Under the pieces are notes generated by a model. It was not told the DNA's origin. It made no database searches and worked only from the letters and a program-made list of their open reading frames with translations. A stretch of DNA of 64,000 bases from Neorhizobium galegae bv. officinalis (GTDB lineage Bacteria; Pseudomonadota; Alphaproteobacteria; Rhizobiales; Rhizobiaceae): positions 1 to 64,000 of the forward strand of contig CCRI01000008.1 of the NCBI GenBank assembly GCA_000985875.1, read 5' to 3'. Shown one piece after another: positions 19,918 through 50,008 of this stretch (position 1 is the first letter of the stretch; each line of letters begins with the position of its first letter). Position numbers and translations under genes: made by a program.

Positions 19918-20736
19918 TCAGAGGATAATCGACGTGAAGAATTGCGCCGAGATGAGGATCAGGAAGATGCCGAAGCCGATTTCGAGCTGCCGCTTCGACA
20001 TGACATGCGCCAGCCGCGCACCGATCGGCGCCATGTAGAGCGTGATCGGGATCAGCAGCGCCACAGCCAGCCAGTTGATATAACCGGTCGAGAACGGCGG
20101 CAGGCCGGGCTTCCCCCAGCCGCCCCGGACATAACCGGCGAGCCCCGGCAGCGAAATCAGCACGCCGACGCCCGAGGAGGTCGCCACCCCCTGGTGGATC
20201 GACCGGCCGTAGAGGGTCATGAACGTGTTGTTGAGGATGCCGCCGCCGATGCCCATCAGGCCGGACAGTATGCCGATACCGGTACCGACCAGGAACTTGA
20301 GAGGATTGCCCGGCAGGTCATCGCCAAGCTTCCAACTGGCGCGATTGAAGATCATCCGGAAGGCAAGCACGAGCGCGATGACCGCGAAGATCAGCTGCAG
20401 TTCCGCGCTGGTCGCCTTGGCGGCGATGACGGTTGCAACCAGCGTGCCGAGCGGCACCGCGACGAGCCAGCCCTTCAGCAGATCGGTATCGACCGCGCCG
20501 CGCTGCCGGTGCGCCATGTAGGAGCGGATCGAGGTGGGCACGATGATCGCCAGCGACGTGCCGAGCGCCAGCTGCATGCGCACGTCCTCGGGAACGCCGA
20601 GCAGGCCGAAGACATGGAAGAAGATCGGCACTAGGATCGCACCGCCGCCGATTCCGAACATGCCGGCGAGAATCCCGGCGACCGCGCCGCCGGCCAGAAG
20701 CGCCAGGATGAAGGGGAAAATCGCTGCGATGGACAA
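19918..20736 (-). CDS. TauE/SafE-family (sulfite exporter/DUF81) permease
   Basis: 272 residues from TTG 20736, which has GGAG 8 bases upstream and brings the protein straight into its first helix; ATG 20781 would add 15 residues rich in Arg and lacks a site. About eight membrane segments with the internal repeat signature GGAVAGILAGMFGIGGGAIL and GLMGIGGGILNNTFM that defines the family. Probably exports a small anion (sulfite, sulfonate) or imports formate-like compounds; substrate unknown. Separate transcription unit from the ABC exporter. Confidence 0.87.
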   Translation of the reverse strand: MSIAAIFPFILALLAGGAVAGILAGMFGIGGGAILVPIFFHVFGLLGVPEDVRMQLALGTSLAIIVPTSIRSYMAHRQRGAVDTDLLKGWLVAVPLGTLVATVIAAKATSAELQLIFAVIALVLAFRMIFNRASWKLGDDLPGNPLKFLVGTGIGILSGLMGIGGGILNNTFMTLYGRSIHQGVATSSGVGVLISLPGLAGYVRGGWGKPGLPPFSTGYINWLAVALLIPITLYMAPIGARLAHVMSKRQLEIGFGIFLILISAQFFTSIIL

Positions 20737-20956
20737 ATTGCGGTCTCCAGTCCGACATCGGGTCCGAAGAAGGAGGTTCATCCACTGCCGCTGTCATTTT
20801 TCCGTGACGTTCTTACAGCATTGTCCCCATCAGGCAAGCAACGGTCCCGCCTTTTACGCCGCACGTAACCTCTTGCGCGACCGTCATGACCAGAGCGTTT
20901 CAGTCATTCTCATTTCCGCTTGCCGCATGCGTACTGTTTTCAAGTATAAGTTCTTG

Positions 20957-21032
20957 CGTAACCGGAAGCACGGCTCCTCCCCGCGAGCCCCACCTCCACC
21001 CTCGCCGGCTCCCTGAGCCGGCTTTCTTTTTT
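20957..21032 (+). ncRNA. Candidate small RNA with anti-Shine-Dalgarno loop and strong terminator
   Basis: Between the leftward TauE gene and the leftward MmcQ gene, on the opposite strand, there is a hexamer pair (TTGCCG 20920-20925, TATAAG 20945-20950, 19-base spacer) followed by about 75 bases ending in a perfect terminator. The body has a hairpin GGCTC/GAGCC exposing a CTCCCCG loop and a second C-rich segment CACCTCCACC. Exposed CCUCC-type loops plus a U-rich 3' end are the pattern of the rhizobial alpha-r14/cuckoo-type Hfq-dependent sRNAs. No protein frame fits. The 5' end is estimated. Confidence 0.5.
21004..21032 (+). terminator. Strong Rho-independent terminator (orphan, no gene upstream on this strand)
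   Basis: GCCGGCTC paired with GAGCCGGC (8 bp, perfect), CCT loop, then TTTCTTTTTT. The neighbouring genes run the other way, so it must end a transcript starting in the intergenic space, supporting the sRNA call. Confidence 0.8.
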
Positions 21033-21279
21033 GACGGGCGGTTCGAGCCGATCCGGCTCAGGTGCTTGAGTGAGACCCGGCACGCCATGGGCTTGGTCAG
21101 CGCGCCGGGTCCCGTTGCCGCAGCAGGGGTAAGGCCGCGGGGGGGCGGGCTGCGGCGTCGCCACTCTTGCTTCGCCGGCGCTTATGGTTCCAGTTTGGTT
21201 TCCGGATATGGTTTATGGACGGTTAATGTCCACAGGCTGACAGTCGCTTCGTGTCTCAGGGGTATCGGGCTCGGGCAGT
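21033..21279. other. Intergenic, no gene recognised
   Basis: Rest of the 540-base gap between the TauE and MmcQ genes. It contains an 8-bp inverted repeat GACCCGGC/GCCGGGTC (around 21074-21113) and a short TGGAC/GTCCA stem near 21216-21233. Frames here are not protein-like. Confidence 0.4.
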
Positions 21280-21603
21280 TCAGGCGCGGCGTTTGCCGGG
21301 AAGCGCATGCCGCCACGCCGTTTCCAGCGCGTCGCGGAGATCCGCCTCTTCGAGTTCCGAGAGAATCGCCGTCGTCCAGCCCTGACGGCCCCAGGCGTTC
21401 GGAACCGGCGAAAAGGCGTTCGGCAGCATCTCGCATTTGATCTGCTGCTCGTCCGGCGTGAACTTGAAATTCGCGGTCAGTCCGTCGGCCACCAGCGTAA
21501 CGTAGATGCGCCTGACCTTGAACGCCGCCCTGTCGAAATGCGGTGCTTCGGCGGTTCCTTCCAGGGCAAGGGCCAGATTGCGGAGCATGTCGGCATTGGT
21601 CAT
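21280..21603 (-). CDS. MmcQ/YjbR-family protein
   Basis: 107 residues with the CyaY-like fold of the MmcQ/YjbR family: ALALEGTAEAPHFDRAAFKVRRIYVTL, FKFTPDEQQIKCEMLPNAFSPVPNAWG and W-T-A-I-L-L-like helix followed by DALETAWRHALP. Members are small DNA-binding-like proteins with no firmly established role. It starts 9 bases after the extensin-like gene ends, so it likely rides on that transcript. Confidence 0.85.
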   Translation of the reverse strand: MTNADMLRNLALALEGTAEAPHFDRAAFKVRRIYVTLVADGLTANFKFTPDEQQIKCEMLPNAFSPVPNAWGRQGWTTAILSELEEADLRDALETAWRHALPGKRRA

Positions 21604-21612
21604 CGCCGGACC

Positions 21613-23061
21613 TCAGCTGCAATAGCGCTTGCCGCTCCTGCGGGAGCGCAGGTCGAAGTGAAAATGGTTCCAGTGTTCCGCGTTGCTGCCCGGACCCAGC
21701 ACGGTGTTGAAATATTTGCAGCTGTCGTTGCGCACCGCCTTCAGGAGACCGCCTTCGCGCATCGAGAACAGGCCCTTCTTGCGCACGTCGATCTCGTGGC
21801 CGTCCTTCAGGACGATCTGACCGATATCGATGGCGTTGCCCTTGGCATGCTCGGACATCGGGTTGTTGCGCTGGTTGCTGTTGTTCATCCGCCGGCAGGA
21901 ATAACCGCCCATCGGCACGATCTTCTGGATGCCGGTGAGATAGCGGTAGCGGGCGGAAGGAGCGAGCTCGTTCTTGACCCATTTGGCAAAGGCGAGCGTC
22001 GTCTGGCAGTTCAGCGTGACGGCCGGCTTGACGTCGATATTGCCGGACAGGCCGGAGAGTTTCACCGGATAAGGCACCCTGCAGCTCGGGCCTGCGTCGA
22101 TGGGCGGCCGGTCGTCGAATTCGACGCCGAGGCGCCTCAGCTCCGCGCGGCAGCTCACTTCCGACCGCGGCATCACATCGCGCTGCCAGGGCATATCGCG
22201 CTGGCTCATCGGGCCGCTGTCGCTCATCGGGTTGTTGGGGCGTAGCATCGCCACCTGCTGGGTGCCGGCAGGTGCCCGGCTTGGCGGGATGACGCGAGAC
22301 CCGTCGCTCCAGGTCATATCGTTGTTCGCCAGGTCGCCCTGCAGGCCGGCGCCCTGGCGCTTCGGCGGCACGAGCACGCGGTCGTCGTTCGTGGACTGGG
22401 GCATCTGCTGCGAGATCGGCTGGCGGCGTGGCTGCAGCGCGCGGGGATTGTCGGTGCCGATGCCGTCGACGACGGGCTGGTCGCCGACACCTTCGGCGAT
22501 ATCGGAATCCTGCTCCTCGGCAAGTCCCGTCACGTCGCTCTCGTCGGGACCGAAACCAAGTTCGGCGTCGATGTTGACGCCCTCTTCCGGAATGGTCATC
22601 GGTCCGGCATTGCGGGCCGTGTTGCGGCCTCCGACGGATGCCTGCTGCTGCATCGCCTCGTCGCTGTCGATCATCGGCAGGCGGCCCTGGCGGGCGGGCG
22701 CCGGCTGCTGCGACACAGGTGCATTCAGGGGCGCGGACTGCACCTCAGCCGGGGCCCGCAGGTAATGGCCGCCGTCATTGGCGCCGGAACCGGGATAGGC
22801 CGAATTGGGGTAACCGGTGCCGGCGAGATTCGGCGTGTCCGCGTAGTTCACGCCGCTTGCCTGCGAAACCGGGGCCGGGTTCGTGGGATAGGCCTGCTGG
22901 GAAACCCGCTCGCCCGGGATGTCGCGCATCGGCTGGATCGCCCCGACCCGGCCATTGTCGATCGGCGCGGGCGGAACGAGGTCCCCGGCGGAACAGGCAG
23001 CCAGCATTGTCGGGATGATCAGCGAGCCGATCACCCGCCGAGAAAGGGGAGCATACGCCAT
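21613..23061 (-). CDS. Extensin-like C-terminal domain lipoprotein
   Basis: 482 residues from ATG 23061. A lipoprotein signal (hydrophobic GSLIIPTMLAAC, lipobox LAAC with Cys about 23) anchors it to a membrane. The next ~300 residues are low complexity (Gln, Pro, Asn, Asp). The last ~170 residues form the extensin-like domain, with CRAELRRLGVEFDDRPPI, the paired Cys (CRVPYP, TLNCQTTLAFAKWV), YSCRRMNN and the C-terminal HWNHFHFDL-like zinc motif of LAS-superfamily peptidases. Likely a cell-wall or periplasmic hydrolase. The N-terminus lies close to the end of the degraded oxidoreductase gene. Confidence 0.88.
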   Translation of the reverse strand: MAYAPLSRRVIGSLIIPTMLAACSAGDLVPPAPIDNGRVGAIQPMRDIPGERVSQQAYPTNPAPVSQASGVNYADTPNLAGTGYPNSAYPGSGANDGGHYLRAPAEVQSAPLNAPVSQQPAPARQGRLPMIDSDEAMQQQASVGGRNTARNAGPMTIPEEGVNIDAELGFGPDESDVTGLAEEQDSDIAEGVGDQPVVDGIGTDNPRALQPRRQPISQQMPQSTNDDRVLVPPKRQGAGLQGDLANNDMTWSDGSRVIPPSRAPAGTQQVAMLRPNNPMSDSGPMSQRDMPWQRDVMPRSEVSCRAELRRLGVEFDDRPPIDAGPSCRVPYPVKLSGLSGNIDVKPAVTLNCQTTLAFAKWVKNELAPSARYRYLTGIQKIVPMGGYSCRRMNNSNQRNNPMSEHAKGNAIDIGQIVLKDGHEIDVRKKGLFSMREGGLLKAVRNDSCKYFNTVLGPGSNAEHWNHFHFDLRSRRSGKRYCS

Positions 23062-48348: not shown

Positions 48349-49776
48349 CTATCGCTCCCAGTCTTCCTTCGCCGCCTTCGGTCCATTGCCGAGCTTGCGC
48401 TCGAATTCGGCGGCCTCGGCTTCGGACATGCGGACGTCCAGGGTGACGGAACCGTCCTCGTTGTCCTCGCGGCCGTCGACGACGGCGTTGCTGTAGACCC
48501 AGGAGACGATGGAGAGCTGATCCGCCGGGATGACGATCGAGGTTTCGGTGAGCACGCCGGAGAGGCGTTTCGAGATCTCGTCCATCAGGGCATCGACCCC
48601 CTCGCCCGAGATCGCCGAGACCGCCATGACGTTCTCACGGCCGGCAGCGCGTTCGGCGATCGCCTCATGGGCTTCCGGGTCGAGCCGGTCGATCTTGTTC
48701 CAGACCTCGATGATGCGCTTGGCGGCTTCCTTCTCGTCGATGCCGAGATCGGAAAGGATGCGCATGACGTCGCCGGCCTGGGCGGCGTTGTCCGGATCGG
48801 ACATGTCGCGCACATGCAGGACGAGATCGGCTTCCAGCACTTCTTCCAGCGTCGCGCGGAAGGCGGCGACCAGATGGGTCGGCAGATCGGAGATGAAGCC
48901 GACCGTATCGGAGAGGATCACCGTGCGGCCATGCGGCAGCTTCATGCGGCGAAGCGTCGGATCGAGCGTCGCAAACAGCATGTCTTCGGCCAGCACGCCG
49001 GCACCGGTGATGCGGTTGAACAGCGTCGACTTGCCGGCGTTCGTATAACCGACAAGCGCCACGATCGGGTGCGGCACCTTGCGGCGCTTGGCGCGGTGGA
49101 GCTGGCGGGTGCGCACGACCTGTTCGAGCTCGCGCTCCAGCTTGACGATGCGTTCCTGCAGCAGCCGGCGGTCGGCTTCGATCTGGGTTTCACCGGGGCC
49201 GCCCATGAAGCCGGCGCCACCGCGCTGGCGTTCAAGGTGGGTCCAGCTGCGGACCAGGCGGCCCTTCTGGTAATTCAGATGCGCCAGATCGACCTGCAGC
49301 GTGCCTTCCTTGGTGGAGGCACGGCGACCGAAGATCTCGAGGATCAGGCCGGTCCGGTCGATGACCTTGGCCTGCCATTCCTTCTCGAGATTGCGCTGCT
49401 GCACCGGGGTCAGCGGGTGATCGACGATGACGAGGCCGGCATCGTGCTCGTCGAGCAGCGCCTTGATTTCCTCGATCTTGCCGCTGCCCATCAGCGTTCC
49501 CGGACGGGGCTGGCTGATCGGAACGATCAGCCCCTGCACGATCTCCAGGTCGATTGCTCGTGCCAAGCCGATCGCCTCTTCGAGACGGGCTTCGTTGGAG
49601 CGCTGCGGTGCGGGGGCCTGACTTGCGTCGCCCTGCCCGGCCTTCGACCGTCCCTGCTTGAGGACCGGCACGATGACGAGTGCGCGCATATCGTCCCGGC
49701 GCTTTTCAGCCTCCGGGACCATGGATTCATTGGAAGTATCGCGATTTGAAATCTGTTCTGTCCTGTTAGGCCGCAT
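48349..49776 (-). CDS. hflX: GTPase HflX
   Basis: 475 residues from ATG 49776, which overlaps the end of hfq by 11 bases. N-terminal HflX domain with [80 protein letters not shown]-type motif, and G domain: [34 protein letters not shown] ribosome-binding GTPase that rescues or dissociates stalled ribosomes. Coupled to hfq as in most proteobacteria. Confidence 0.95.
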
Positions 49777-50008
49777 TCTCTTCGGTTTCGAACATCTGCA
49801 TGGGCTGGCCCGGCATGATGGTCGAGATCGCGTGCTTATACACGAGCTGAGAGTGGCCGTCACGGCGAAGCAGGACGCAGAAGTTGTCGAAAGAGGTTAC
49901 GACACCTGTCAGCTTCACCCCGTTGATCAGGAAAATCGTCAGGGAAATCTTCTGCTTGCGAACGGTATTGAGAAATAAATCCTGCAGGTTCTGAGAACGT
50001 TCCGCCAT
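49766..50008 (-). CDS. hfq: RNA chaperone Hfq
   Basis: 80 residues from ATG 50008. Sm1 ([36 protein letters not shown]) and Sm2 ([12 protein letters not shown]) complete, length typical for rhizobia. Hexamer that pairs sRNAs with mRNAs. Upstream ATG 50038 is in frame but not protein-like. A 107-base gap to dat holds its promoter; it is followed by hflX. Confidence 0.97.

Follow-up and report, generated by a model that had tools for sequence, protein, structure and literature searches.

Does the gap between a sulfite exporter gene of the TauE/SafE family and a YjbR gene in Neorhizobium galegae bv. officinalis hold a gene for a small regulatory RNA and, if so, where does this gene begin and end, and to which RNA family does it belong? 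The question was raised by a sequence-only reading of the window (the whole 64,000-nt stretch of DNA analysed, from a genome of 6.4 Mb), in which an orphan plus-strand terminator, preceded by promoter-like hexamers and a C-rich hairpin, was taken to mark a short sRNA at 20920–21032. A DNA search of 60 genomes recovered the region in eight (its own genome included); once all loci are set in the same orientation, their alignment shows stronger conservation between about 20791 and 20890 than in the hairpin that had been singled out. A protein-coding explanation of the region was set aside in view of indels of 1–3 nt across relatives; a 184-aa open reading frame at 20886, which passes through the terminator, was rejected as coding. 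The features discussed below are collected in Table 1.

Table 1. Features of the region between the TauE/SafE and YjbR genes, in window coordinates.
Feature	Coordinates	Strand	Basis or remark
TauE/SafE family gene (PF01925), sulfite exporter	19918..20781	minus	divergent neighbour of the RNA
Conserved block CTGTCAT-N6-GTGACG-N9-CATTGT	20791..20828	plus	consensus over 29 loci
Whole RNA, about 200 nt	20832..21032	plus	conserved alignments and terminator distance; 5′ end inferred
5′ structured domain	20833..20924	plus	R1 matches, covariation, G-U vs A-C strand test
P1 stem, GGCAAGC/GCTTGCC	20833-20839/20918-20924	plus	closes the 5′ domain
P2 stem, ACGGTC/GACCGT	20841-20846/20879-20884	plus	
P3 stem, CGC/GCG	20848-20850/20875-20877	plus	
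Apical hairpin TACG-CCGCA-CGTA	20855..20867	plus	fold
Outer stem P4	20964..20997	plus	weak at this locus; relatives have CGGAG/CUCCG-like arms
Hairpin P5, GGCTC-CTCCCCGC-GAGCC	20972..20989	plus	fold; presumed seed in loop
P5 loop CUCCCCGC	20977-20984	plus	presumed seed
Intrinsic terminator	21004..21032	plus	scan and conservation
Second conserved RNA element, two hairpins	21057..21191	minus	fold and covariation; downstream of YjbR
YjbR gene	21280-21603	minus	other flank of the RNA region

A covariance model of the 92-nt 5′ domain (R1) was built from 16 sequences, with locus L017 left out, and run against related genomes under strict filters that lose weak matches. With these filters 29 of the 57 genus genomes gave a match (one each) and 28 gave none, and the five matches among 394 sampled genomes of the family all fell within the genus. 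When the 29 sequences are aligned to the model, 98.0% of the cells pair and five pairs show changes on both sides; none of 500 shuffles – a control that ignores the relatedness of the sequences – reached any of the five measures. Because this alignment is itself fitted to R1, the count was repeated on a structure-blind MAFFT alignment (A10) of 27 of the 29 loci, L112 (in which the 3′ arm P1′ was mis-set) and L116 being left out. Here 97.6% of the cells pair and three pairs show two-sided changes (4 of 500 shuffles do as well); the covariation score was reached by no shuffle in 500 and the number of further pair types by eight, and sliding the partner along the alignment leaves at most 35.4% of cells paired.

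The same alignments carry information on the strand. Read as plus-strand RNA, the structure-blind alignment contains 12 G-U cells compared to three if read as minus, and the model alignment 14 compared to two. P1 is nearly invariant, with two G-U changes as its only variation in the structure-blind alignment, and the weight of the covariation therefore rests on P2 and P3; the GCCGC within the apical hairpin stretch is retained in nearly all relatives. Together with the bias in G-U pairs, the compensatory changes seen in the inner stems argue that the domain is plus-strand RNA: comparison among relatives shows a 5′ domain under selection for base pairing on that strand.

Downstream of this domain, the orphan terminator seen in the sequence-only reading is present, with a stem (21004–21022) of eight pairs, seven of them GC, followed by TTTCTTTTTT. 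The scan alone is not clearly beyond chance, since over both strands of 1.4 kb it finds two sites resembling a terminator where 1.1 would be expected; what makes the terminator credible is its conservation across loci. A script found it in 23 of the 29 (one of these, L109, being an odd match), and it is also visible by eye in L093, L107, L112, L115 and L116.

The C-rich hairpin (P5) likewise holds up. The segment 20952–21032 folds on its own (z −2.8), and UCCCC in the loop is unpaired with probability 0.85–0.99 in the window RNA. The motif [UC]CCCCG[CU], which covers the UCCCCGC loop, is retained in 21 of the 29 loci and absent from eight; across the 21 the mean unpaired probability of the loop ranges from 0.32 to 0.99 and is at least 0.83 in 17. 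In 20 of these 21 loci the flanks can form a stem of at least four pairs, compared to a mean of 6.5 and a maximum of 12 out of 22 when flanks are shuffled (the total of 22 includes one match, in L117, that falls outside the RNA); nine of the 21 loci are nearly identical, so these counts overstate independence. An automatic consensus fold of 20 3′ halves (from an imperfect alignment) recovered the terminator but, in place of P5, gave a pairing between CGG and the loop's CCG, with no pair changing on both sides. This counts against an exposed loop, and the case for the 3′ part consequently rests on sequence conservation and on single folds. From these, comparison shows a conserved hairpin predicted to present UCCCCGC. 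A further stretch, CACCTCCACC, which had also been thought freely exposed, does lie at 20991–21000, and part of it is occupied by the outer stem P4, which surrounds P5 and occurs in relatives as CGGAG/CUCCG or CGGAAG/CUUCCG. Its UCC is unpaired with a probability of only about 0.3 in the window RNA; since in many relatives this position forms the 3′ arm of P4, it is mainly the P5 loop that would be exposed.

Do the two parts belong to one RNA? In 22 of the 23 loci with a script-found terminator, the terminator ends 180–202 nt past the start of the 5′ domain (P1), which makes a single RNA of about 200 nt likely, in the order 5′ domain, linker, C-rich hairpin domain and terminator. The full-length alignment takes in 22 of the 29 loci, and alignment A7 takes in 20. 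The initial estimate of about 75 nt thus falls well short; the span 20920–21032 covers the 3′ third and misses the 5′ part with the domain at 20833–20924. We consider it very probable that a structured plus-strand RNA gene, present as a single copy in its genome, lies at this locus, and probable that it extends from 20832 to 21032.

Upstream of the RNA lies the conserved block at 20791, separated from it by a nearly fixed spacing. Most of the block is retained in loci that have no TauE gene; it is weaker in L113–L117, and its −10-like part is lost in L113, L114 and L117. The palindrome within it, TGTCAY-N6-GTGACG, has two sites in the genome, the other being inside an ABC ATPase gene. The block is probably a promoter or operator; no sigma-factor signature was recognised in it. 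Given that GTCAT and GTGAC can pair, it could instead form the 5′ end of the RNA, which would then be nearer 240 nt long.

The hexamers from which the shorter transcript had been proposed fared poorly. A promoter scan of 20300–21700 returned no sigma-70-like site, the putative −35 (TTGCCG, 20920–20925) overlaps the 3′ arm of P1, and a −10-like hexamer (at least 4 of 6; A2, T6) 15–19 nt after CTTGCC occurs in one of 29 loci, in a count for which the script's anchor lay a few bases too early in L111 and L113. An sRNA of about 75–80 nt from an internal promoter near 20952, alone or beside the long form (as might result from processing), is accordingly thought unlikely. AAGTAT does stand 17 nt after CTTGCC in seven of 29 loci and GAGTAT in three more, the 3′ half folds independently, and processed short forms are possible in rhizobial sRNAs, to judge from the accessible text on EcpR1 (PMC4414408); but the hexamers are poor, CTTGCC is retained even where no −10-like hexamer follows, and the domain upstream, on the same strand, shows selection at the level of RNA. 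The conservation of that domain might alternatively be that of DNA, with palindromic −35 elements or operators of divergent TauE and sRNA promoters: GGCAAGC/GCTTGCC offers CTTGCC outward on both strands, and P1 hardly varies. Set against these points are the compensatory changes in P2, the one-strand G-U bias in P2 and P3, the absence from the plus strand of a conserved −10 at the right distance, and the persistence of the arrangement after loss of TauE, which together render the DNA explanation very improbable.

Loss of TauE bears as well on whether the element is a cis-acting leader or riboswitch of that minus-strand gene. It lies directly upstream of TauE in 18 of the 29 loci (window neighbours mapped onto the loci); in the remaining 11 the gene is missing, with an ABC-transporter ATPase gene in its position, and the RNA is retained. 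Retention in these 11 loci indicates an independent gene and not a TauE leader; with wobble pairs favoring the plus strand and the terminator on that strand, the leader hypothesis is largely refuted and we give it almost no credence. The TauE protein itself has its nearest named relatives, among the matches listed (which may omit records very close to this genome), in Neorhizobium vignae and N. galegae (95% identity), with 97% identity to N. tomejilense over part of the protein. On the other flank, two relatives (L004/L013 and L005) have further genes inserted between the RNA and YjbR/extensin, two small ORFs whose products by eye resemble an antitoxin-like protein and a GNAT-like one, and the RNA stays in place.

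To which family, then, might an independent RNA gene of about 200 nt belong? No Rfam 15 family lies above its gathering cut-off in the window; among the weaker matches to the region GadY comes first (20.7 of 45 bits, E 0.11). The sequence-only reading had suggested kinship with alpha-r14 (NfeR1/Smr14C2, RF02344; the 'cuckoo' RNAs, whose loop motif is described in the available parts of PMC3927594, PMC7143759 and PMC10746234). There are points of likeness: this RNA is probably trans-encoded, as they are, and both kinds come from rhizobia, have an intrinsic terminator and carry a C-rich loop whose sequence would allow pairing with ribosome-binding sites. The alpha-r14 RNAs, in contrast, carry three hairpins with unpaired CCUCCUCCC, where this RNA has one hairpin with a UCCCCGC loop, and their model has 123 positions and five copies in this genome, where this RNA has a 92-nt 5′ domain and one copy. 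With 150 of 315 first-look candidates scored, the ar14 model (cut-off 58.8 bits) finds those five copies elsewhere in the genome at 88–112 bits, and at E ≤ 10 it does not list the present locus; nor is ar14 among the matches of a more permissive Rfam scan of the region. In control genomes the same search gives sub-threshold matches in nine of 14 and none above the cut-off. The true copies, at G000:C14:163142, C8:155990, C1:71619, C16:100566 and C21:76323, contain three CCUCCUCCC-type motifs; one of them is on the window's contig, outside the window. Membership of alpha-r14 is ruled out by the absence of a match at E 10 together with the single C-rich hairpin.

Other rhizobial RNAs offer partial resemblances. 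EcpR1 (SmelC291, sra33) has, in the accessible text of PMC4414408 and PMC3927594, two conserved loops, one GC-rich (UCCGCCGCAUCU) and one C-rich (UCCUCG), and the widely kept GCCGC(A) in the 5′ domain of this RNA recalls the first of these. EcpR1, however, lies downstream of divK-pleD and has a main form of 101 nt with two stem-loops, and this RNA shares neither the neighbors nor the architecture; the two are set apart on place and architecture and not by comparison of models. The exact SL1 loop UCCGCCGCAUCU is absent from the locus, whose neighbors are TauE and YjbR and not divK-pleD, and the rest of the genome has 10 sites with this 12-mer compared to seven for its reversed control. PmaR (C10) of Agrobacterium also has an accessible C-rich loop but differs in being a single long stem between two hypothetical genes and, as far as the available part of the source goes, is confined to Agrobacterium and one Rhizobium strain (PMC6234868). 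AbcR1/AbcR2 (alpha-r15) share anti-Shine-Dalgarno motifs, and their targets include ABC transporters (PMC7143759, as far as its accessible text goes); they differ in being RNAs of 114–120 nt from a tandem locus beside lsrB. Since no Rfam family matches, the ar14 test was negative, and place and architecture differ from those of EcpR1, the RNA is taken as a new family. The original proposal is supported in so far as it concerns an orphan plus-strand sRNA candidate that lacks an Rfam match and has an exposed C-rich loop, and the best reading is a new sRNA family which, as far as searched, appears limited to part of Neorhizobium. The literature searched (mostly open-access main texts) yielded no description of this RNA and no study of sRNAs in Neorhizobium.

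What such an RNA might do is suggested by its loop. Transcribed from the conserved block at 20791–20828, it would be stabilized by its 5′ domain (or the domain would hold a protein), and the C-rich loop would pair with purine-rich ribosome-binding sites (GGGGA or GGAGG), blocking translation of several mRNAs. Repression of this kind is inferred from the loop and from the precedents of NfeR1, AbcR and EcpR1, as given in the accessible parts of PMC10746234, PMC7143759 and PMC4414408. NfeR1, the founding alpha-r14 RNA, is described there as Hfq-independent (PMC10746234). The window does encode an Hfq-like protein, as the sequence-only reading had stated (about 49766–50008, minus strand, recognised by eye from the translation); lying 29 kb away, this gene says nothing about whether the RNA binds Hfq.

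The loop is complementary to GCGGGGA(GGA), and GCGGGGA-N2-10-ATG occurs at 121 sites in the genome compared to 22 for the reversed control. Just three of 12 sites chosen among the matches listed precede open reading frames of at least 250 aa (cheB, an ABC permease and a LivG-like ATPase), and the pattern was for this reason dropped as a target list. Several GCGGGGAGAAGG...ATG sites, for instance G000:C4:325895, C15:120319 and C6:17260, precede no real gene and are probably copies of a dispersed repeat. Two of the three genes were also set aside: the cheB site is not conserved (five of 15 RNA-bearing genomes, one of six others), and the LivG-like gene has a match of 92% identity in two of 15 genomes and of 72–77% in four. 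At the permease, the start region GCGGGGAGGA complements UCCUCCCCGC (20975–20984) over 10 nt, 6 nt before the ATG, with two of the 10 RNA bases sitting in the P5 stem. GCGGGGA is found there in 12 of the 13 RNA-bearing genomes that have a match to the gene (15 searched), the thirteenth having GTGGGGA, and in none of the three genomes that have the gene and no R1 match (six searched). An ordinary Shine-Dalgarno sequence forms part of the motif, which also overlaps the end of the upstream gene, and the genomes that gave no R1 match are more distantly related; for these reasons the evidence is suggestive only, and the permease is put forward as a candidate target. Its neighbors, judged by eye, we take to be an ABC ATPase and a cytosine-deaminase-like protein.

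The same RNA could work otherwise, as a sponge, a protein-binding RNA or a positive regulator whose loop acts outside ribosome-binding sites. PmaR provides the precedent, its accessible C-rich loop mostly raising its targets and, in the available text, reportedly not serving as an anti-Shine-Dalgarno (PMC6234868), and the 5′ domain is present in eight loci that lack the loop motif. The loop, on the other hand, complements GGGGAG/GGAGG well and the one conserved complementary site is located on a ribosome-binding site, so we regard such a role as having a small chance. For the proposal that the RNA acts mainly through pairing of its loop at ribosome-binding sites, the chances seem to us evenly balanced. 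The account as a whole – a new plus-strand sRNA of about 200 nt whose C-rich loop would pair with ribosome-binding sites – we hold to be moderately likely.

Beyond the terminator, on the minus strand, lies a second conserved RNA element, which is a separate lead beside the plus-strand RNA. It carries the C-runs CCCCCC and ACCCC in the loop of its first hairpin and, compared with shuffled sequence, folds better when read as the minus strand (z −2.8), an advantage not seen for the plus strand (z 0.4). An alignment of 11 sequences has 98.2% of its cells paired, with two-sided changes at six pairs (3 of 500 shuffles do as well); no shuffle in 500 reaches the covariation score, and the further pair types (298 of 500) show no excess. 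A model of the element (R2), built from 11 sequences obtained by a motif search of the collected loci, finds a second, diverged copy in the same genome (42 bits) and has matches in two other genus genomes (two in G398, one in G027); matches of 20–26 bits in 13 further genomes of the family are regarded as chance. All three loci with diverged copies (L204, L205 and L190) contain a TfuA gene, and the one of them tested for YcaO has a YcaO gene too. A weak 6C match in the region (18.1 of 47 bits) did not recur in six other loci, of which three carry diverged copies. Upstream of the element, at about 21210–21226 on the minus strand, is a conserved stretch which in several relatives reads TTAA-N7-TAAACC and which we take to resemble a CtrA site. 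A reading that joins both elements sees the intergenic region as a small regulatory cluster of two convergent C-rich RNAs: the 5′ domain of the first would sense a protein or ligand and gate the seed loop or terminator, and the second would be the minus-strand, two-hairpin RNA with C-runs and a diverged copy near TfuA/YcaO, unrelated in structure to the first. This combined reading strikes us as decidedly doubtful.

The gap upstream of TauE was also seen in the Agrobacterium group (L033, L034, L036–L038, L041, L042, L045) and in Sinorhizobium/Ensifer (L035, L040, L043, L044, L046, L048, L051). Loci of Agrobacterium and Sinorhizobium have at the same place a TGTCAY-N6-RTGAY-like block, C-rich hairpins and, in most cases, a terminator, and are possibly expressed counterparts. 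The Agrobacterium set shows no two-sided change and R1 gives no good match to the look-alike loci L033, L034, L039, L048 and L051; these loci were therefore rejected as members and are treated as positional look-alikes.

As this locus illustrates, when an sRNA is called only from its terminator, the greater part of the RNA can be overlooked and the arm of a stem mistaken for a promoter. For Neorhizobium, whose members are legume symbionts and soil bacteria, the comparison adds a putative sRNA family supported by covariation, with probable boundaries and a testable candidate target.
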